Below the pieces are notes generated by a model. It was given only the letters and a program-made list of their open reading frames with translations, did no database searches and was not told where the DNA came from. Made by a program: the position numbers and the translations under genes. Positions 5,847 through 26,076 of a stretch of DNA of 36,568 bases are shown here, piece after piece (position 1 is the first letter of the stretch; each line of letters opens with the position of its first letter). Where the stretch lies: positions 1 to 36,568 of the IMG/VR virus record IMGVR_UViG_3300020607_000011. The stretch is one strand, 5' to 3'. Source of the DNA: a virus.

Positions 5847-7813
5847 GCGCGGCGTCCTGTTGCGCGGGCCATGCTGCCGCCGTTGTTGAGCTGGCGTTGC
5901 AGCTCCTGCTGCTGCTGACGCCCGATCTCGGCCATGCGCTGCTCGATGAGCGCGCGGTCGCTGGCGTTCACACCGCGCAGGTCGTTGTGGTTATTGATAA
6001 CCACCGTGGGTGCGGCGGGTGCGGGTGCGGCGGTTACTGAAGCAGCGCGGCCTGCCGGGGTTAGGCCGTCGATCTGATTGATGATCTGCTGGGACAGCAG
6101 GCTGCCGGTGTTGTCAATGCTCGGCGTGGCGCTAAACGCGGCATCAATGGCTTCAGGTGCGGGTGCTGCGCGGCCTGCCGGAGTTAGGCCTGAATTCTGA
6201 TCAATGATCTGCTGTGTTTGCTGGCTGCCGGTGTCGGTGCTGTAAGTGCTTGAGGTGGTGCCAAACGCGGAATCCATGATTTTCTGCACCGGCTGTTGCA
6301 GGTATTGCTCGTAATTAATGCGCAGCAATTCGTCGATAATGGTGTCAACGAATGAACTTAGCGATAGCTCGGCATTTTTGACCGAATCGACCCACGCATC
6401 TTCAAAGGCCCCGGCTGCACGGTCGCTGGCCTGCTGCATGCGGTCGAATGCCTCCTCAGCATCGTCGGCCATGCCGTTGATTTCGGCCCAAGCTTTTGTG
6501 CGGGCGCGGGTGGCGGTGTCTTCGTTAATAGCGTTGGCTTCGAGCAGTTTATTGATGCGCTCGATACGCGCCTCGTACAACTCAGTGGGGTTCAGCAGCG
6601 AGCGGGTCAGCGCTGCGCCTTCGCTCATCAGTCGATTGTGCTCGGTGCGAGCTGCGTTGGCCTCGCGTTGCGCAGCGGCCTGGTTAGCTCGTTCGGCGCG
6701 GCTTTCTTGCTCCAGCTCACGCTCTCGCAGCTCGATTTTTTCGGCCAGCAGGCGCACGTTTTCAATCTGCGCCGGGGTCATTTCAAGCTGCTGGGCTTTG
6801 TAAACGGCCAGCTCAATATTTGTCATGCCCAGGGTGTCGCGCTCGCGCTCCAGCTCGGCGATGTATTTTTGCACGTTGTTAATGCGCTGGTTTTCGTCGT
6901 CGCCGTTGCGCAGCTGCTCAAGCTCCTGCTCAGCAGCCGCCAGCGCCAGGCGGGCGTCGGTGAGTTCCTGGGTTTTGTCAATTTGGTCTTGACGGTTTTT
7001 TGCGAGGCGTTCGTCATCACCTGCGTTACTGCGAGATTTTTTCGGGCCTTCAAGCGACTCATCCAGGTCGCCTTCAAGATCGAGAATCAAATCGCGCAGC
7101 GCGTTGATGTCGGCTTCTGCGTTGCGCACCTGTACGTGATGCAGGTTGTCGACCATGCTTTCAAAGCGGCCTTCGAACCCATCAATAGCCTCCTCGCCGC
7201 GCATGAACGCGCTCACCATCGGGCCAGCAATCGCGCCGCCGATGGCCAAGACCGCGCCGACCATCGCGCCAGTTGGGCCGAAAACACTGGCGAGCTGCGA
7301 GCCCTGCTGCGTCAGCACCACCATTGGATTGACGCCCATTTGGAGCTGCACCGCCATATCCTGCAACTGATAACCAAGCTGGGTAGTTGCACCGCGCATC
7401 ATGCCCATGCTTTTGCCAGCTTTTTTTGTTCTTTCCTTGTGATTGTTGAGTTTTTTGTTGGTTTTGTCAGTCTCCCTACCAAGTCGCTGCTGAGAGTCAC
7501 TGAGCTGATCTAAATCGTCAGCTGTATTGTCCGACTGTTTGCCGAGGCGCTTTTGTGTGTCGCTTTGCTGATCCAGTTTACGCTTGGTTTTGTCGGTTTC
7601 ATTGCCGAGGCGCTTTTGTGTGCCGCTTTGTTGATCAAGCTCGCCCTTGGTTTTGTCGATTTCCTGACCCAGGCGCTTCTGTGTGTTAGCGAGAAGAGCC
7701 TGCTTGCCCGTGGTTTTCTCGGATTCCTTGCCTAGTTCTACAATGCCCTCAATTACGCCCATCATGCCGTTTTCTGTGGCAGTCAAACGCAACCCAACCA
7801 ATATTTCACTCAT
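5843..7813 (-). CDS. Tail tape measure protein
   Basis: This 656-residue protein sets tail length in siphophages and is ejected ahead of the DNA. Residues 44-127 are four 21-residue tandem repeats. Residues 179-204 are a hydrophobic, Gly/Ala-rich membrane-like segment (starting GPTGAMVGAVLAIGG). Residues about 225-490 are long charged helices with coiled-coil character. The C-terminus is Pro/Ala and Gln-rich with two copies of the phrase GLTPAGRAA. The preceding segment TTQLGYQLQDMAVQLQMG and VLTQQGSQLA is highly typical of tape measure proteins of this class. CGGGGA lies before the ATG at 7813, and the gene overlaps the end of the chaperone frame by 8 bases. At about 1.5 A per residue the tail would be near 100 nm. 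Confidence 0.92.
   Translation of the reverse strand: MSEILVGLRLTATENGMMGVIEGIVELGKESEKTTGKQALLANTQKRLGQEIDKTKGELDQQSGTQKRLGNETDKTKRKLDQQSDTQKRLGKQSDNTADDLDQLSDSQQRLGRETDKTNKKLNNHKERTKKAGKSMGMMRGATTQLGYQLQDMAVQLQMGVNPMVVLTQQGSQLASVFGPTGAMVGAVLAIGGAIAGPMVSAFMRGEEAIDGFEGRFESMVDNLHHVQVRNAEADINALRDLILDLEGDLDESLEGPKKSRSNAGDDERLAKNRQDQIDKTQELTDARLALAAAEQELEQLRNGDDENQRINNVQKYIAELERERDTLGMTNIELAVYKAQQLEMTPAQIENVRLLAEKIELRERELEQESRAERANQAAAQREANAARTEHNRLMSEGAALTRSLLNPTELYEARIERINKLLEANAINEDTATRARTKAWAEINGMADDAEEAFDRMQQASDRAAGAFEDAWVDSVKNAELSLSSFVDTIIDELLRINYEQYLQQPVQKIMDSAFGTTSSTYSTDTGSQQTQQIIDQNSGLTPAGRAAPAPEAIDAAFSATPSIDNTGSLLSQQIINQIDGLTPAGRAASVTAAPAPAAPTVVINNHNDLRGVNASDRALIEQRMAEIGRQQQQELQRQLNNGGSMARATGRRA
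7433..7684 (-). repeat. Four 63-bp tandem repeats in the tape measure gene
   Basis: Four contiguous in-frame units encode residues 44-64, 65-85, 86-106 and 107-127. The consensus is TQKRLG-x-E-x-DKTK-x-x-LDQQSD. Units 1 and 2 are closest to each other, while units 3 and 4 have diverged (TADDLDQ and NNHKE). The period is exactly 63 bases with no gaps, so copy number could change by slippage without breaking the frame and would change tail length by 21 residues per unit. Confidence 0.9.
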
Positions 7814-8481: not shown

Positions 8482-9399
8482 CTAGTGGTTTCGGAGTTTA
8501 AAGAGATACTCAAACTCGGCTGTGAGCGCAAAATCAATGTTCAGCATCGCCGTGCCATCCTGGTTGCCGTATTTGGTATCAATTATCTGTGCCGAATCAC
8601 CCCACGAGACAACAGAAGCCCTCGCCCCTATAGGCCCATGATTTACAGCGTACCGCTGCAGTGTTTCGCCCGTCTGTTCGGCCCAAAAATTGCGTGTGGC
8701 GACGCTGGGAGCCAAAATGCTCATGCTGGCCCGAGGTTTGCGGTCAGTGATAACGATCTCCTCTACCCCGGTTAAATCTCTGTGCTGTACCTCATTACCC
8801 ATGTCAAAACTAAACGAATGGGCAGAGACATTAACCGCACCGATAGCTGCCAGCGTGTTGGCGGCATTCATTGCCAAAGGCTTGGGCTGATTGGTGAAGG
8901 TGACCGCCGTTTGAGACTGCTCAACCGGCGCGGCATAAAGCGCCATTCCGGTGAACTCGCTCATGGGCACCTTTCCCGATGTGCCAGAAACCTTTAGATT
9001 GCCGCGCACACCGACCAGCTTGTGCAACTGAGTGTCGATATTGATGTACAGCGTCATTGACTCTTCAAGCGATTCGATAGGCAAATAGTCAACCGCGTCA
9101 ACCTCGATAGTTTCAGCGACGCCGCAAGCACGGTAAACAGCCGCAAACCCTGGTGGCGTGGTGGCCGTGCCGGAGCCCACAAACGGAATCTTAAAGCGAA
9201 TGCCGATGCCTTTTTTTGCTAACACATGAACGCTGTCACCAATCCGGCCACTGGCTCGCTGGTACTCATCGTATTCAGCGACGAGTGGGGTCAATTCGAC
9301 GTCGTAGGCAACCAGTGCGTTAGCACCTACGGTTGGCACGGGGTCTGTTCCGTAGGTAGTTTCGATTTCCGCCAAAACTGTTTTTTTAGCCCACTTCAT
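8482..9399 (-). CDS. Major tail tube protein
   Basis: This 305-residue protein begins MKWAKKTVLAEIETTYGTDP, a typical opening of siphovirus tube proteins. It continues with alternating beta strands such as IGIRFKIPFVGSGTAT and LVGVRGNLKVSGTSGK. The length fits the larger tube family found in B3-type phages. The gene lies between the tail terminator and the G/GT chaperones, the usual place. GGAGG is 8 bases before the ATG at 9399. It overlaps the small upstream gene by 4 bases. The protein should polymerise as hexameric rings around the tape measure. Confidence 0.87.
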   Translation of the reverse strand: MKWAKKTVLAEIETTYGTDPVPTVGANALVAYDVELTPLVAEYDEYQRASGRIGDSVHVLAKKGIGIRFKIPFVGSGTATTPPGFAAVYRACGVAETIEVDAVDYLPIESLEESMTLYINIDTQLHKLVGVRGNLKVSGTSGKVPMSEFTGMALYAAPVEQSQTAVTFTNQPKPLAMNAANTLAAIGAVNVSAHSFSFDMGNEVQHRDLTGVEEIVITDRKPRASMSILAPSVATRNFWAEQTGETLQRYAVNHGPIGARASVVSWGDSAQIIDTKYGNQDGTAMLNIDFALTAEFEYLFKLRNH

Positions 9400-9554
9400 G
9401 CTTCAACCTCCGGTTCCGGGTTTGCGGGTTCGGGCTCGCCTATTTGGGCGGGCGCGGTGCGCTGCACGAGTTGCAGTGATCCATCGGGCTGGCGGGTATA
9501 GCTGCCACCCTGGGTCGGTTGCTCAAATGGTTGTTCGGGCGTTTCTGTGCTCAT
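9396..9554 (-). CDS. Small Pro/Glu/Gln-rich protein of unknown function
   Basis: This 52-residue protein begins MSTETPEQPFEQPTQGG and ends in an acidic Pro-Glu tail (EPEPANPEPEVEA). The start at 9554 is supported by GGAG 8 bases upstream and by an ATGA overlap with the preceding stop. A longer in-frame reading from 9611 overlaps the upstream gene and lacks such support. The sequence is low complexity and probably disordered. Short genes of this kind are common just before tube genes in this phage group, but I know of no assigned role. Confidence 0.65.
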   Translation of the reverse strand: MSTETPEQPFEQPTQGGSYTRQPDGSLQLVQRTAPAQIGEPEPANPEPEVEA

Positions 9555-9988
9555 TGTTGAACTCCGGGGTGGTAGATTGAGGTGGTGGTTCTGTAGCTGT
9601 CCTGCCACCAAATAGTTGACTCGTTAAATTGCTGCAAGCGACCGGCAGCCGCTTCCACGGGGCTGTCGGCGTCGGCTGGCTGCCAGGCGACCAGCAGATC
9701 GCGCAATGCCAGGCGCTTTTCTCGCAGCTCGTCAAGGTGCTGTGCGCCAGAGCTGCTGCCCAGGTGTTTAACGGCCAGCAATATCGCGACAGTTTCGGTC
9801 TCGGTTTGATGCACGCCCTCGGTGCCGAGAATGTTTTTACCCGGCGCGCCCGCCTGGGGGATTAAAAACGCAACCGGGGTGGTGCGATATTCAGCGCGCG
9901 CGGCGGCAAAATCAGCGGCAACGCCGACTTTACGAAACAGCTTCGACTGGTCGATGCGCGCCTGCCACAGATTCAAATCAAGCGGCAT
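9551..9988 (-). CDS. Tail terminator / tail completion protein
   Basis: This 145-residue alpha/beta protein begins with the amphipathic stretch LNLWQARIDQSKLFRKVG and has ETETVAILLAVKHLG in the middle. This matches the tail-terminator-like family found between the head-tail connector gp36 and the tube gene in Mu/B3-like phages. By family it caps the tube at the head-proximal end and stops polymerisation. It is coupled at both ends: its ATG at 9988 touches the stop of the gp36-like gene, and its stop overlaps the next start by 4 bases. Confidence 0.7.
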   Translation of the reverse strand: MPLDLNLWQARIDQSKLFRKVGVAADFAAARAEYRTTPVAFLIPQAGAPGKNILGTEGVHQTETETVAILLAVKHLGSSSGAQHLDELREKRLALRDLLVAWQPADADSPVEAAAGRLQQFNESTIWWQDSYRTTTSIYHPGVQQ

Positions 9989-10404
9989 CAGAAGCCTCGC
10001 CGGTTGCGGTTGGTGAATTGGCGGCCAGATTCAGCAAACACCGGCTCGCCAATAGCGGCTGCGCTGGCATCGTTGCTGCCGGGTAGTTCCAGCTTGCCGT
10101 CGCGAATATCGCGCAGCAGGGCGCGGGCGCGGTTGCCTGCGTTGGTCACTGCGGCGTTTTCGATGTCGTCATAAAGCTGCACGCGAACCAGATCGCAGCT
10201 CAGGCCCGTCAGCAACGCCGGTACCGTGCTCAGCGGCAGGCTGTAACGAGTGCCGATGTGCGCGTCGATGATGGCATCGGCATCGGCGATGGCGCGCGCC
10301 ACAGCGGCATCGTCGATCTGGCCGAGGTTTTCGTCGTCGGTCAGCTCGCGCAGCTCGGTTTCGCCGAAGCGCTCAATCAGATCAGTGGTTGTGCAGTAGC
10401 TCAT
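9988..10404 (-). CDS. Head-tail connector, Mu gp36-like (DUF1320)
   Basis: This 138-residue protein starts MSYCTTTDLIERFGETELRE, the diagnostic N-terminus of the DUF1320/gp36 family. It has a following helix pair (DADAIIDAHIGTRYSLPL) and a Leu-Arg-Asp-Ile-Arg-Asp-Gly-Lys motif near residue 98. These proteins form the adaptor ring below the portal. The gene starts 4 bases inside the previous gene. Family membership is firm, and the adaptor role follows from homologous siphophages. Confidence 0.85.
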   Translation of the reverse strand: MSYCTTTDLIERFGETELRELTDDENLGQIDDAAVARAIADADAIIDAHIGTRYSLPLSTVPALLTGLSCDLVRVQLYDDIENAAVTNAGNRARALLRDIRDGKLELPGSNDASAAAIGEPVFAESGRQFTNRNRRGF

Positions 10405-10712
10405 GCGCCATCCGGTTTTATCAGCAAATAATCAAACTGCTCTTTTTTCGCACCGTCCTCGCCGTAGGTCGCGGTCACGGTCAGGCGGCGACGTTCGCGG
10501 CTGCCGCTGCCCTGCATCGCGTTGTGCGTTGCGCCAATCTCTAAAGTGAAGCTGCTGGCAGCGACTAACGAGGTATCGCCAACGACTTGACTGCCGTTAA
10601 TCACATCCAGGCGGTAGCTGACGCTGGCCGGGGTTTCGGCGGCGTTGTTGTCATCAGTGAACGTAATCTCAAGCGGAAGCGACTCACCGGCGATAACGAT
10701 TTCTGTGTTCAT
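10401..10712 (-). CDS. Small beta-rich virion-associated protein, unknown
   Basis: This 103-residue protein has alternating beta-strand character (for example SLPLEITFTDDNNAAETPA and VSYRLDVINGSQVVG) and looks like a single immunoglobulin-like or lipocalin-free beta sandwich. It has no signal peptide, cysteine or membrane segment. It lies between gp36-like and another structural gene, with short overlaps at both ends, so it is probably a minor head or fibre component. I do not recognise a named family. Confidence 0.55.
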   Translation of the reverse strand: MNTEIVIAGESLPLEITFTDDNNAAETPASVSYRLDVINGSQVVGDTSLVAASSFTLEIGATHNAMQGSGSRERRRLTVTATYGEDGAKKEQFDYLLIKPDGA

Positions 10713-11194
10713 CAGCTAAAAGTGATCGTTGCGTCTAATGTCCAAACTTGCCCGCTAGCTTTGGTGCCCTGGTTCGACACGCGGCGATTCAAATGCACGT
10801 CGCCCGCTGTGGCACCGTTAACAATTGCCAGCTCATTCCAGTTGAAGTTGGCGTCGTTGGCACCAAAGACGCTGCGAAATGTGATTGTCTGATTGCTGAT
10901 TTGCGGATAACCGGCTTCAACCGCTTGATAGTATTTGTTGGTCACGGCCTGCAGGCCGGTCTGGGTCGCCACAGCCGCTGTGTTGCTGTCACCCACGGCA
11001 AGGGCCGCGTTGGCATTACCGAAGTGCGCCGCCGCAGCGCCGGTGAGCAGATTCAACAGGGCGGTGATGCCGCTGTTTAACAGCAGGTTTCGTTCAAACA
11101 CGCTGGCGGACAGCAGCGGGCCTTTGCGGTAGTCAGCCTCGCTGGCGTAGCGTTCGATCCGCCATTTGATTTTGTAGCCGATGTGGTCTTGCAT
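10712..11194 (-). CDS. Probable virion structural protein (fibre/decoration-like)
   Basis: This 160-residue protein has N-terminal WRIERYASEADYRKGPLL, then a small hydrophobic helix (SGITALLNLLTGAAAAHFG) and a beta-rich C-terminus ending in TLDATITF. The pattern of a short N-terminal strand region, an Ala/Gly-rich helix and a segment like FNWNELAIVNGATAGDV resembles phage structural proteins that present a jelly-roll tip. GAGG is 9 bases upstream of the ATG. It follows a repeat-rich gene by 9 bases in the same operon. The function is inferred from context only. Confidence 0.5.
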   Translation of the reverse strand: MQDHIGYKIKWRIERYASEADYRKGPLLSASVFERNLLLNSGITALLNLLTGAAAAHFGNANAALAVGDSNTAAVATQTGLQAVTNKYYQAVEAGYPQISNQTITFRSVFGANDANFNWNELAIVNGATAGDVHLNRRVSNQGTKASGQVWTLDATITFS

Positions 11195-16394: not shown

Positions 16395-16940
16395 TTAATC
16401 GTCAAAGCGTTCGATGTGCTCGGTGAGGATTTGTTCGATATGGTCGGCGTCTGCTGCTGAAACACCCAGGAACTCGCGGCCCGGAATATCACCCCACGGC
16501 ACGGGCGCGCCATTGCTGGCGGTGCCGTACTCGCCCTTATCAGCACCGAAGTGAAACGTGCCACCGTATTCCATCGGCGTGCCCACCAGCAGGCCCTCGG
16601 CATCAACCTGGTAGGTGATGGTTTTTGACAGCAGCCCGGTTTCACCGATGCCGGGGCGTTTGTTGATGGCCCGGCTTGAACCCTTGGCGGTGATCTTTCC
16701 GGTCTTCTTGCTGAAGCTGGTTTTATATTTGCCCAGGTATCGCAGGATGGTGGTTTGAGCGTTCGCAGCCCAGCTGCTGCCGTCGGGCGCTTCGCTGGTC
16801 TCAAAGCGCTGTTTGGTGCTGTCGGCCAGCACTTCGCCGATTTCATACCAGGCTGAATCCAGATCATCAGTCAGCTCGGCCAGCTTGTTAAATTTGCGCT
16901 TCGCCTCTTCGAGACCGGTTATTTCATTTTTAATTTCCAT
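16395..16940 (-). CDS. G: Virion morphogenesis protein, Mu gpG-like
   Basis: This 181-residue protein belongs to the phage virion morphogenesis family (Mu gpG, P2 gpS). Signatures are GLEEAKRKFNKLAEL near the N-terminus, FETSEAPDGSSWAAN, and IPGREFLGVSAADADHI near the C-terminus. The ATG at 16940 is preferred to a TTG five codons upstream. TGAGG lies 10 bases before it. It overlaps the F-like gene by 11 bases. In Mu it takes part in joining head and tail. It is the last gene of the packaging operon before the second late promoter. Confidence 0.85.
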   Translation of the reverse strand: MEIKNEITGLEEAKRKFNKLAELTDDLDSAWYEIGEVLADSTKQRFETSEAPDGSSWAANAQTTILRYLGKYKTSFSKKTGKITAKGSSRAINKRPGIGETGLLSKTITYQVDAEGLLVGTPMEYGGTFHFGADKGEYGTASNGAPVPWGDIPGREFLGVSAADADHIEQILTEHIERFDD

Positions 16941-18147
16941 CAATAATGGCCTCAATGGCGCGCCCCACCAGCCGCTCGAAATTCAGCAGGCTGGCGGCTG
17001 TTTGGATGCGACCGACAGCGATAGTGTGGGTGTTGTCTGCATTGACGCGCGCACCGGGCTGGCGGGTTTTGGCTGCAAAGCCGATGCTCAACACCTGCGC
17101 GCCATCGTTTTGCTCGCCAGGGTAGACGTACAACAAAGCCGGGCGTGTTTGCGTGTTGTCGAGCAGCACGGCCTGCGGTTGTTTGAGTTGATCGGGCAGG
17201 TTTTGCCAAAACAGTTCAGGCAGGCGGTCGGCTGCGGTGCTTGACAGCGCTGCATCAATAGCGCGGGCGCTGAGCGTTATGGCGGCGTTTTCGGGCTCCA
17301 GGTCGCGGGCGGTGAGCTGTTCAACCAGCTCGGCTGACAGCGCACCGACCACGCGGCTTTTAGCTCGGCGTTGCTGCGCTGCTCCGTTTGCCCAGGCTGC
17401 GTAGTCGTGCGCTGCGGTATCGCTATTGCCAGAGCGGGCAAAATAACGCGCGCCGAGCGCGGCAGGCAGGCGCTTTACGTTATCGCCCACTTGGCTGCGC
17501 AGCTCATCTGCAACCGACCCGCCCGGCATGTAATCCCAACCCTCGTCAATGCTTTCTTTTTGATCCGCAGGCGGTGGCGTAAATTTACCGCCCATTCGCT
17601 CGGCGGTTTTGCGGCTGACAGCGGTGACGTAGCACGAGCAGCCCCAGCCGTTGGGTGGGTAGTGTGTTTGCCACCATTCGTCGTCGGCTGCGAGTACGTG
17701 TTTGTTCCAGGCGAGATGATGCGGGCGTGGGTCGAGACTGCCGCCGTGACGGTACATCCAGTAGGGCGCGACGGCTTTAAGTTTCGGGTTTTTGAGTTGT
17801 TGCAGCCGCCCGGTGGCGTAGCTGGTGCGCAAGTTCGTGGTGTAAATCACGCGGGTACGCCAGTTGCGACTGCCGTTGTACTCCCAGCCTGTCTGCTTGA
17901 CCAGCTCGTCAAATTGCGAGCGAAACCATTCAATGCTTTTGCCCTCGGCGGCAGACTTTTCGATGAGCCGGGCCATGTCGCCGAGCACGTTGGCGCGGGT
18001 AGCACCGGCAACAACAAAGGCGCGGTCGTGCGCGTTGCGCTCGATGTCGCGCCATGTGGCAGTGTCGATGAGGTTTTCTGTGCGCGCCTTGATTGCCGCG
18101 ACTTGCTCAGAAAACGGCTGACGGATGGGGTGCTGTTTAGTCGGCAT
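16930..18147 (-). CDS. F: Minor head / head morphogenesis protein, Mu gpF-like
   Basis: This 405-residue protein has the Phage_Mu_F domain. It has RVIYTTNLRTSYATGR near residue 100, then RHGGSLDPRPHHLAWN and the Cys-containing HYPPNGWGCSCYVTA around residue 160, which is diagnostic for the family. It is bound to the portal inside procapsids and may enter the cell with DNA. The ATG at 18147 is preferred over a GTG at 18165. The GTG lies inside the stretch proposed to be an inserted integron-like cassette, while the ATG lies in the reconstructed phage sequence. It follows the cassette gene stop by 2 bases. Confidence 0.87.
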   Translation of the reverse strand: MPTKQHPIRQPFSEQVAAIKARTENLIDTATWRDIERNAHDRAFVVAGATRANVLGDMARLIEKSAAEGKSIEWFRSQFDELVKQTGWEYNGSRNWRTRVIYTTNLRTSYATGRLQQLKNPKLKAVAPYWMYRHGGSLDPRPHHLAWNKHVLAADDEWWQTHYPPNGWGCSCYVTAVSRKTAERMGGKFTPPPADQKESIDEGWDYMPGGSVADELRSQVGDNVKRLPAALGARYFARSGNSDTAAHDYAAWANGAAQQRRAKSRVVGALSAELVEQLTARDLEPENAAITLSARAIDAALSSTAADRLPELFWQNLPDQLKQPQAVLLDNTQTRPALLYVYPGEQNDGAQVLSIGFAAKTRQPGARVNADNTHTIAVGRIQTAASLLNFERLVGRAIEAIIDGN

Positions 18148-18149
18148 GG

Positions 18150-18356
18150 TTATGTGTTTACCCACGCCAGCCCTATAAAATCTCTGCGGCCCGTATTAAT
18201 ATCTTCAACGTGATGAATAACATCCCCATCAGCAACTTCGTGTTTTCCAATAACCTTAGCGACAGCGCTGCCTAATGCAAAACTCACTGTTGTTTCATCG
18301 CCAACACATAACAAGTCGTTTAACTCGGAATCGTCTTTCTTTGCTTCGCTCATCAT
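18150..18356 (-). CDS. Small protein of unknown function, probable integron-type cassette gene
   Basis: This 68-residue protein starts with two Met codons and then SEAKKDDSELNDLL; its first 15 residues nearly repeat those of the gene at 25798-26049. The rest differs (VSFALGSAVAKVIGKHEVADG and then VIHHVEDINTGRRDFIGLAW). That section looks like a small beta barrel and resembles cassette-encoded DUF-type proteins. GGAGAGG precedes the start. The Shine-Dalgarno, start and first codons lie in an attC-like site (18306-18383), and the TAA stop (18150-18152) is in the GTTA box at 18149. It separates the portal and F genes, which are normally adjacent in Mu-like phages. The function is unknown. Confidence 0.75.
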   Translation of the reverse strand: MMSEAKKDDSELNDLLCVGDETTVSFALGSAVAKVIGKHEVADGDVIHHVEDINTGRRDFIGLAWVNT

Positions 18357-18383
18357 TCCTCTCCGGTTAACTGGTCGTTAATT
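18306..18383 (+). other. attC-like integron recombination site (site 1)
   Basis: The R'' core ACATAAC is at 18306-18312 and the R' core GTTAATT at 18377-18383, 78 bases in all. Inside, TTAAC (18320-18324) can pair with GTTAA (18366-18370) and CGG (18326-18328) with CCG (18363-18365), leaving T18325 extrahelical. The stretch between R and L boxes is unpaired. This is the layout of an attC stem: R box, unpaired spacer, L box with an extra base, variable loop. Bases 18329-18372 are identical to 26022-26065. R boxes match the consensus only in their AAC/GTT cores. Confidence 0.62.
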
Positions 18384-18389
18384 ACAGCC

Positions 18390-20000
18390 CTACTGCTCGT
18401 CGACTTCGTCCTGCACGGCCTCGCGCCCGATGCCGTCTGCAACTGAAAACGCCAGGGCCATAACCTCTTGCAAGGCGCTGTCGTCCAAATCGCCGTAGGC
18501 AGCCAGCAGCGTGTCGCGCAGGTCGGCGAGGTCGTCGGCCTGTTCGGCCATTGCGCGAATCTGCTCGAACCACACGCGCAGCGGCTCGGCGGTCTCGGCT
18601 TCGAGCTGGTCGGCCAGTGTTTCGGGGGTGTCATTTTCGCGCCGGGATTTCAGCGCCGTCATCGTGCCACTGTAGTAATGGCGCAGGCTGGCGGTGGCCG
18701 GTGGTGGCTCGGTGGGCTCAGTGGGCTCGGGCTTTGGTGGTTGCAGCACCTCGTCCTGCTCGGTGGCTTGCGGTATGCCACTAACCTCGTGGGCATACCA
18801 GGTCGGTATTTGCATGCCCATGCTCACGAACGTGGGCAGCGACTCGCTCAGCAGCTTTAAATCCTCCGGCTCTTTGGTTTCGAGGTAAAAGCGCGGACAG
18901 CGGCGGCGGTCATCCAGCAGGCCGTTGAATGCCATCATTGGCCAGATCATGTATTCAGTGATACTGCTGCTGTATTGGCGCACATCCGAGCGGATGAGGC
19001 TTTTGGTGGTGCGCTCATGAACATTACCGAGGGCGTTGGTGTTAGTCCCCTCGCCGGTGCCGCTGGTGAGTGAGCCGCCCAGGATGGCTTTGGCTTTAGC
19101 GCGCTCGCACCAGTTCAGCATGGCCTCGAACATGTCTGACTTGCCGTCAGCCGCCTCCAGGTACTCGATGCTCATGCCTTCCGGGATGATGCCAGCGGCG
19201 CGGTGCCCCATCGTCGTTACCGCGCGCAGCAGAGTGGCTTTTTCATCCGGCGAGGCGTTGGTTGGGAACTTTCCCAATCGGGCCGGTATGCCATAAATCT
19301 CCAGCAACTCGGCGAGGTCTGCCAGTGCGTAGTTTTGAAACAGGTAGGGCCATGCCAGCACCCGGTGCAGGCCTGAGCGCGCCACATAACCGGCTTTAGC
19401 GCGGTGGCGGTGTTGCACCCAGCCGCCGTTCCACAGCTCGGCTCCGTTGCTGCTGTTGTCGCGCAGCATGAGTTTATTTTGGTCGGCGGTGTGCAGCCTG
19501 AACCAGCTGTGCGGCCTGAATATCGGCTGCTGCGGCTGGTGCCGCCCTTCGCGCAGCTCCCACGGTTGCTCCAGGTTGGCCCAGCCGTGGCCCACACCGG
19601 CACCGAGGTTGATAATCAAATCCTCAACCTCCAGCTCGGTGAACACCTCGTTGGCCCAGTCTGCGGCTTTTTGTTCGGCAGCACTGGCGTTGTCCGGTGC
19701 TTTAATCTGCCACTCCAGCTCGGCAGCCATGTTGACGCGCACGCCCAGGTCTGAGGCGATCTGTGCGTCTTTTTCTTCCATGTCTAAAAACAGCTCGTGC
19801 TGGGCTTTTAGGTCGCCGTGCTCAGCCGCCTCCAAAACCTGATAAAGCTTTGTGGGCGTGATGCCGTTGCTGACGTGCTCGGCAAACTCGCGATGCAGCA
19901 AGCCCACGCGCGCTTCATCTTCTGTTTGCTGTTCTTGCAGCGGGTTGCTGCCCGTTTGCCAGTTATCGAACAGGCGCTTGATGCGGTGCGGCATTTTCAT
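18390..20000 (-). CDS. Portal protein, Mu gp29-like (DUF935)
   Basis: This 536-residue protein would form the dodecameric ring at the DNA-entry vertex. DUF935 signatures include QVLEAAEHGDLKAQHELFLDM near residue 60 (in part LEAAEHGDLKAQHELF), the DAQIASDLGVR segment and the VLAWPYLFQNYALADLAELLE region near residue 215 (WPYLFQNYALAD). The C-terminal part is Pro-rich followed by helices. The ATG at 20000 has GGAGG 8 bases upstream and follows the large terminase stop directly. The only oddity is the downstream insertion that parts it from F. Confidence 0.9.
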   Translation of the reverse strand: MKMPHRIKRLFDNWQTGSNPLQEQQTEDEARVGLLHREFAEHVSNGITPTKLYQVLEAAEHGDLKAQHELFLDMEEKDAQIASDLGVRVNMAAELEWQIKAPDNASAAEQKAADWANEVFTELEVEDLIINLGAGVGHGWANLEQPWELREGRHQPQQPIFRPHSWFRLHTADQNKLMLRDNSSNGAELWNGGWVQHRHRAKAGYVARSGLHRVLAWPYLFQNYALADLAELLEIYGIPARLGKFPTNASPDEKATLLRAVTTMGHRAAGIIPEGMSIEYLEAADGKSDMFEAMLNWCERAKAKAILGGSLTSGTGEGTNTNALGNVHERTTKSLIRSDVRQYSSSITEYMIWPMMAFNGLLDDRRRCPRFYLETKEPEDLKLLSESLPTFVSMGMQIPTWYAHEVSGIPQATEQDEVLQPPKPEPTEPTEPPPATASLRHYYSGTMTALKSRRENDTPETLADQLEAETAEPLRVWFEQIRAMAEQADDLADLRDTLLAAYGDLDDSALQEVMALAFSVADGIGREAVQDEVDEQ

Positions 20001-25158: not shown

Positions 25159-25326
25159 TTATGAGTCTTTCGCCTTTTCCAGCGCGGCAGCCCAAATCCC
25201 CTGAAACTCTGCCCATGCGCCATCCGAGGGAAGAGAGCCCAGATCGCATGCGTTGTTGCTGTGCATGATGATCTCTTCGTCAATCTCTTCGATTAGGTTG
25301 TCAGGTATTTCAAGGGTTATTTTCAT
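25159..25326 (-). CDS. Small acidic protein, probable cassette gene, function unknown
   Basis: This 55-residue protein starts MKITLEIPDNLIEEIDEEI, a strand-helix opening that resembles small ribbon-helix-helix or Arc-like proteins, followed by an Asp/Ser-poor helix ending AAALEKAKDS. The ATG at 25326 has GGAGAGC closely upstream; a longer reading from 25626 overlaps the HNH gene and is rejected. The TAA stop (25159-25161) falls in a GTTATGA box, the same feature seen in the other cassette genes. I do not recognise its function; an antitoxin-like role is only a guess from the first strand. Confidence 0.6.
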   Translation of the reverse strand: MKITLEIPDNLIEEIDEEIIMHSNNACDLGSLPSDGAWAEFQGIWAAALEKAKDS

Positions 25327-25362
25327 CCTGCTCTCCGATCTAGGCGCGCCTTGTATGGTGCT

Positions 25363-25406
25363 GTATAACACGCCAAACAAGCAGGCCGTATAATCACCTG
25401 TTATAA
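25363..25406 (+). other. Possible short attC-like site (site 4)
   Basis: TATAAC (25364-25369) and GTTATAA (25400-25406) bracket 44 bases. The left arm, TATAACACGCCAAACAAG, resembles the start of Vibrio-type attC sites (TATAACAAACGCCTCAAG). The L arms pair poorly, and it is short for an attC. It is supported mainly by its place between two putative cassettes and by GTTA being the stop of the HNH gene. Confidence 0.35.
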
Positions 25407-25715
25407 CGCTAATTCGCCTTGGCCACTTTCGCGGCGCAACCGTTCGCGTCGGTTCTTTCTTCGCATCTCTGCATCGTGCCCGTTGTGGCATTTTTGGCAG
25501 AGCGCAGCCAGGTTCAGAAAGCTGGCCGCTTCCGGTCGGTGGTCGTAAACGTGCGCCGTGGTCAACACCACCTTGCTGCCTGTTTTTGGGTGCGGCTTCC
25601 CGTTCTCGGCTCCGCACCACTCGCACTTGTTTTTTGCTCGGTAGTGCCTGATAAACCGGCTGCGTAATTTCCAGTCTTTCGGGTATCTCGCTTTCATTTC
25701 CGGTCGTATCGGCAT
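25401..25715 (-). CDS. HNH endonuclease, probable cassette gene
   Basis: This 104-residue HNH nuclease has CEWCG (first zinc pair), the catalytic TTAHVYDHRPEA with its His, the Asn in FLNLAALC, and CQKCHNGHD with the second Cys pair and final His. Such small HNH proteins nick or cut DNA with a metal ion. Many phages place one beside the terminase, where it aids packaging. Here it lies 3.6 kb away, in the cassette-like region, so its role may differ. The ATG at 25715 is preceded by GGAG with 6 bases of spacing; a TTG two codons earlier is unlikely. The TAA stop is within the GTTA box at 25400-25403. Confidence 0.87.
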   Translation of the reverse strand: MPIRPEMKARYPKDWKLRSRFIRHYRAKNKCEWCGAENGKPHPKTGSKVVLTTAHVYDHRPEAASFLNLAALCQKCHNGHDAEMRRKNRRERLRRESGQGELAL

Positions 25716-25728
25716 AATCAACTCCGCG

Positions 25729-25803
25729 TTATAACAAGTCGGTCAAGTTCGCCCTTCGGGCGGGACGCTCGCAAGCTCGCGCCCCTTACCTCGGTCGTTA
25801 CCT
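25729..25803 (+). other. attC-like integron recombination site (site 3)
   Basis: TTATAAC (25729-25735) and GTTACCT (25797-25803) are the outer boxes, 75 bases apart end to end. The inner arms TCAAGTTCGCCC and GCGCCCCTTACC match the L'' (TCAAG) and L' (CCCTTA) arms of gammaproteobacterial attC sites. Between them are two small hairpins (GCCCTTCGGGC and GCGCGAGCTTGCGAGC on the - strand). The same order and spacing occur in Vibrio repeats (TATAACAAACGCCTCAAG ... CCCCTTAGGCGGGCGTTA). It is the most convincing of the four sites. Confidence 0.68.
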
Positions 25804-26049
25804 GGCGCAAACATGCGCTTCATCTTCAAGAATAAAGGTCATGCAGTCCGGGCATTCACCTACGACCTTTTCACCTTCGTCCTGCAACCCCTTCGCCACG
25901 CCTTCCAGTAATTCGCCCAGTGCGTTTCGGTCTTTTGCATACGGCGCGGAGAACTCCAATATTCCGTCTCCGAAAGTAAGTCGGTAACGAACATTGCCAC
26001 GTAACAATGCGTTCAACTCAAAATCGTCTTTCTTTGCTTCGCTCATCAT
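25798..26049 (-). CDS. Small zinc-ribbon-like protein, probable cassette gene
   Basis: This 83-residue protein has an N-terminus of two Mets and SEAKKDDFELNALL, nearly the same as in the gene at 18150-18356; from residue 16 on it is unrelated. The body is a strand-rich segment (VRYRLTFGDGILEFSAPYAK) and a helix (ALGELLEGVAKGLQ). The C-terminus VVGECPDCMTFILEDEAHVC has Cys-x2-Cys plus His and Cys, a likely zinc ribbon. GGAGAGG and the start codons lie inside the attC-like site at 25999-26076, and the TAA stop (25798-25800) is in the GTTA box of the next site. It is probably nucleic-acid or protein binding; the specific function is unknown. Confidence 0.75.
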   Translation of the reverse strand: MMSEAKKDDFELNALLRGNVRYRLTFGDGILEFSAPYAKDRNALGELLEGVAKGLQDEGEKVVGECPDCMTFILEDEAHVCAR

Positions 26050-26076
26050 TCCTCTCCGGTTAACTTGTCGTTATGC
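25999..26076 (+). other. attC-like integron recombination site (site 2)
   Basis: ACGTAAC (25999-26005) and GTTATGC (26070-26076) enclose 78 bases, the same length as site 1. AAC (26015-26017) can pair with GTT (26059-26061), C26019 with G26058, and T26018 is extrahelical. The block 26022-26065 is identical to that in site 1, after which one base differs and GTCGTTA is again shared, the identity ending at the recombination box. The TAA stop of the ATPase gene uses TTA at 26071-26073. Confidence 0.62.

Follow-up and report, generated by a model that had tools for sequence, protein, structure and literature searches.

The window, i.e., the whole stretch of DNA analyzed here, is a virus record of 36,568 bases and represents a Mu-like phage whose main genes are nearly all located on the minus strand. 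The Mu-type portal gene (18390-20000, minus strand; PF06074, E 4e-84, in agreement with PHROGs) and the gene encoding the Mu F minor head protein (16930-18147, minus strand; PF04233, E 2e-11, also supported by PHROGs) carry the identities proposed in an initial annotation of this DNA. The F start given there, ATG 18147, was supported by the N-termini of relatives, which read MPISAEFRRPFPEQV as compared to MPTKQHPIRQPFSEQV in the window. A tape-measure-like gene contains three 63-bp tandem repeats (7524-7712).

An insertion of 228 bp (18150-18377) between the portal stop (18390) and the F start was confirmed. Along the junction the GC content changed from 0.61 to 0.44 within the insertion and then to 0.65, with steps at the insertion limits; the surrounding region is at about 0.60. 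The segment consists of a single cassette with an attC-like site of plus polarity and harbors, as annotated, a gene of 68 residues on the minus strand (18150-18356), designated P1. It had been described as a cassette splitting the portal and F genes; the insertion is real and lies between them, but neither gene is split. Deletion of 18150-18377 in silico yielded the junction GTCGGCATGG|TTAATTACAGCCC and left 14 nt between the portal stop and the F ATG, close to the 15 nt estimated before, and the coordinates given in the initial annotation held.

Portal and F genes were said to be normally adjacent in such phages, and this was found to be so. Both could be placed in 34 viral relatives, some of which are near-duplicate records, and in 29 of them the portal-F gap ranged from -17 to +13 nt, i.e., the genes overlap or lie within about 15 nt of each other. 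Five more distant relatives (L082, L086, L087, L091, and L092) carry unrelated small genes in this gap, none of them with an attC-like site; an unrelated gene lacking this site in all relatives had been named as the case that would speak against an insertion, and it was encountered in these five only. Hence, the portal-F gap is a tolerated place, but P1 is not ancestral. Two of the small open reading frames in the gap (L086, 2353-2561; L091, 1120-1345) encode cysteine-rich products (CLWCG...CDA.CRDDWER) and have no link to attC.

The closest relatives found share at most about 60-65% identity in the portal protein; therefore, the empty site is demonstrated by gene adjacency and not base by base. 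The alignment with relatives proposed initially thus gave adjacency, and a base-level uninterrupted junction was not found among the relatives retrieved. Since closer relatives are lacking, the exact ends of the insertion were set by the G|TT rule. Read in phage direction, the left junction G|TTA (18149-18152; coding strand, TAA|C) precedes the F ATG by 1-2 nt; the right junction G|TTA is at 18377-18380. Both ends share GTTA, and the sequence alone therefore places the crossover only to within 4 bp; the proposed clean insertion at G|TT with the boundary 18149/18377 is supported within this ambiguity. Crossover at G|TT is the rule for integrons, from which the point was taken here rather than from direct observation. 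G|TT is present at both recombination points (G18149|TT and G18377|TT), and the boxes at both deviate from the full GTTRRRY.

Loci encoding integron integrases (TIGR02249) were collected from 274 gammaproteobacterial genomes together with the adjoining arrays. Covariance models R1 and R2 were built from 18 and 66 attCs, respectively, of these cellular intI-adjacent arrays; none of the attCs came from the window. With both models, exactly three significant matches were obtained in the 36.6 kb, all on the plus strand. The site at the end of the P1 cassette (18306-18382) reached 20.4 bits with R1 (E 0.005, match 18309-18380) and 24.6 bits with R2 (E 0.0009); it contains the R''/L'' arm TAACAAGTCGTTTAAC and the L'/R' arm GTTAACTGGTCGTTA, i.e., the boxes expected of an integron cassette, in a weak hairpin. 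The best site of the window (25729-25802) scored 28.1 bits with R1 and 35.4 bits with R2 (E 3e-6), and the third (25999-26076), which is 91% identical to 18305-18380, scored 26.1 and 22.8 bits. The next-best matches reached only 9 bits with R1 and 11.1 bits at E 1.2 with R2. Among these low-scoring sites, a possible third attC of the array described below (25363-25406, plus strand; 7.7 bits, below significance) has an R' box coinciding with the expected boundary 25400|25401.

Phage TJE1 has three published attCs, all of which were recovered with R2; their scores of 34.9-36.2 bits are comparable to that of the 25729 site. In the relatives (271 kb, plus 79 kb surrounding the same genes), R2 detected no attC of weight. 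R1 suggested an attC in relative L015 (E 0.045), for which R2 gave no confirmation. Next to this doubtful site, between gene G and the protease, Mu-like L015 has an XRE-like regulator and a metallopeptidase-like open reading frame (9126-10740). Furthermore, when 369 gammaproteobacterial genomes were searched with the 86-bp site, four matches were obtained, confined to the left arm; all four lie within model-recognized attCs of multi-attC cellular arrays and have the same polarity. The attC-like site noted initially together with the 68-residue gene is thus supported by both models and by its left arm, which is homologous to attCs of four cellular arrays. From the models and the same-polarity homology the orientation is known: attCs are on the plus strand and cassette genes on the minus strand. 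DNA patterns representing the 18306 site, whether exact or gapped, had no match in viral contigs, and an attC-like match in one gammaproteobacterial MAG was rejected, its loop being unrelated to that of the 18306 site.

P1 is an orphan gene that starts within the attC-like site; its TAA is formed by the first 3 nt of the cassette. In the coding-strand block GGAGAGGAATGATGAGCGAAGC, the attC loop holds both a sequence resembling a ribosome site and the start codon; a second ATG at 18353 would give a product of 67 aa. In 4.7% of shuffled sequences the P1 frame remained open throughout the cassette body, so that P1, taken by itself, is likely but not proven to be coding. Homologues of P1 were found neither in viral contigs nor in phages and plasmids. 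The single match in the 369 genomes was weak, lies inside a frame of 1408 codons, and was taken as chance. AlphaFold run without alignment returned a model of low confidence (pLDDT 59), and at a guess from this model the product may be a small beta-rich accessory protein of the moron type.

A second insertion (25159-26070, plus strand) is located between an AAA gene and the endolysin gene and forms an array of three cassettes (25159-25400, 25401-25797, and 25798-26070); GTTATG flanks this array on both sides. No viral relatives of the AAA gene were found for comparison at this site. All genes of the array are on the minus strand: a 55-aa open reading frame (25159-25326) with its TAA at the array boundary, an HNH endonuclease gene (25401-25721; phrog_1571, E 2e-20) with its TAA at the cassette boundary, and the 83-aa gene P2 (25798-26049), also with its TAA at the cassette boundary. 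P2 shares with P1 the attC-encoded N-terminus MMSEAKKDD.ELN.LL and has a different body; its frame was open in 3.7% of shuffles, its pLDDT was 56, and homologues were absent from viral contigs. The HNH homology shows that at least one antisense cassette frame is a real gene. Over 164 bp, the HNH gene is 81% identical in DNA sequence to a gene adjoining a tyrosine recombinase on a Sulfuricystis multivorans plasmid, where the annotation lists no cassette. With its sites at 25729 and 25999, the array falls under the definition of a CALIN (at least two attCs within a few kb and no intI); the 18150 cassette is single and lies apart from it.

All six cassette junctions begin G|TTA. The genes of the cassettes are oriented against their own attC and in the direction of phage transcription; P1 on the minus strand and its attC on the plus strand thus depart from the usual direction of an integron cassette. 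As calculated from the coordinates, antisense frames fill 91%, 92%, 81%, and 69% of the four phage cassettes and have their stops at the boundaries. Among 77 bacterial control cassettes, the antisense frame was longer than the sense frame in seven, two of which end at the boundary, and in none did an antisense frame fill at least 80% of the cassette. The ends 18149 and 25158 and the boundary 25400 were placed partly with the ends of the reading frames in view; therefore, the stop at 25798 is the only one to fall on an attC end that was called independently.

In our assessment, with a probability of about 0.68, segment 18150-18377 originated as a gene cassette of an integron and was inserted in trans by a host IntI at a G|TTA site which is neither attI nor attC; capture by a host IntI at a G|TT site other than attI is probable. 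No intI was found in the phage record, so the integrase would be that of the host, and it would insert a circular cassette at an attG-like G|TTA site of the phage genome. TAAC on the coding strand corresponds to G|TTA on the other strand and could serve as the target. Insertion at TAA|C between tightly packed genes would be harmless because the upstream stop is kept, as with the TAA of the AAA gene (26071-26073). It would force the attC polarity against phage transcription, and hence only cassettes with antisense genes would be read by the phage's own transcription. P1 would then be co-transcribed with the head genes and its protein produced. This single scheme would account jointly for polarity, junctions, and compactness. 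The source integron was not found among the cellular genomes searched, where attC homology was limited to the left arm.

To be functional, an attC has to fold in single-stranded form. For the 18306 and 25999 sites, folding energies of -3.9 and -3.5 kcal/mol were predicted with z near 0 against shuffles, so the 18306 site has no stable bottom-strand hairpin of the kind that belongs to an integron cassette. The 25729 site folds at -11.2 kcal/mol, yet no better than shuffles. The 66 control attCs had a median of -18.3 kcal/mol and z of -3.1, none being weaker than -6 kcal/mol, and the TJE1 attCs fold at -10 to -17.5 kcal/mol. Both weakly folding sites may be decayed and immobile; because of the weak folding, we term 18306-18382 attC-like or attC-derived and make no claim of present recombination. 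Chances are about even that the segment is a former cassette now fixed in place, its attC decayed or co-opted as the translation start of a phage gene. Apart from the weak folding of both near-identical sites, this explanation draws on the 76-bp copies 18305-18380 and 25998-26073, which differ at seven positions, all in the arms, and have an identical loop comprising the ribosome site and the first nine codons; under selection for recombination, the opposite of differing arms around an identical start-codon loop would be predicted. The R and L boxes still score well, however, and such a former cassette departs from the best explanation in present activity only, which makes it a refinement and not an opposite.

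An ordinary phage moron, acquired by illegitimate recombination at the tolerated portal-F gap and carrying attC-like boxes by chance, is unlikely. It would agree with the lower GC content, which is typical of morons, and with the unrelated genes without attC in the same gap of the five distant relatives, but it leaves to chance three model matches (E 3e-6 to 0.0025) of one polarity at cassette ends with none in 350 kb of relatives; furthermore, a promoter-like site belonging to the P1 cassette itself was not found. We consider it still more improbable that the site and start block (25998-26073) were duplicated within the phage to 18305-18380 and joined to a new gene body without an integrase. 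The 91% identity of the two copies and their identical loop would be expected from such an event, but the gene bodies are unrelated and G|TTA is present at both ends of both insertions. Moreover, the attCs of a single chromosomal integron are normally near-identical.

If insertion of an integron cassette by a host IntI is correct, integron cassettes can enter a phage head operon singly and without harm. The backwards orientation would be explained, since TAAC stop codons are G|TT sites on the opposite strand, and a simple rule would emerge for where and in what direction phages capture bacterial cassettes, together with a route for small accessory genes between bacteria and phages. Only tentatively, and with the odds rather against it, these cassettes may represent a compact reverse class suited to phage operons, in which the attC points against transcription, the attC loop provides ribosome site and start, the boundary G|TTA provides the stop, and insertion at TAA|C spares the neighbors.

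The combination seen in the window was not found in the literature searched, which was limited in extent; its elements resemble several known systems. Morons at head junctions of Mu-like phages are likewise small accessory genes between late genes, and this gap is used in L082, L086, L091, and L092, but they lack attC sites. Insertion of cassettes at attG sites of bacterial genomes, as reported by Loot et al. (2024) according to citing text in PMC12444791 and PMC12901181, also involves a genomic target that is neither attI nor attC, as proposed for the phage; it is described there for bacterial genomes. In Xanthomonas integrons, antisense cassettes, e.g., symE/sRNA-Xcc1 (PMC12444791), similarly carry genes opposite to the usual Pc direction. 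In bacteria they are a minority, whereas in the phage all cassettes are of this kind; the genes stop at the boundary, and two of them start within the attC. From phages, CALINs have been reported, in part with functional attCs, e.g., in Tetrasphaera phage TJE1 (Qi et al. 2023, PMC9892861), and segment 18150-18377 is a variant of these. That study required at least two attCs, whereas the 18150 insertion is a single cassette; additionally, TJE1 genes run with their attCs and those of the window against theirs, and TJE1 attCs fold well, unlike the 18306 site. In both phages, attC-bearing cassettes reside in the genome without intI, and the R2 scores of TJE1 match that of the 25729 site.
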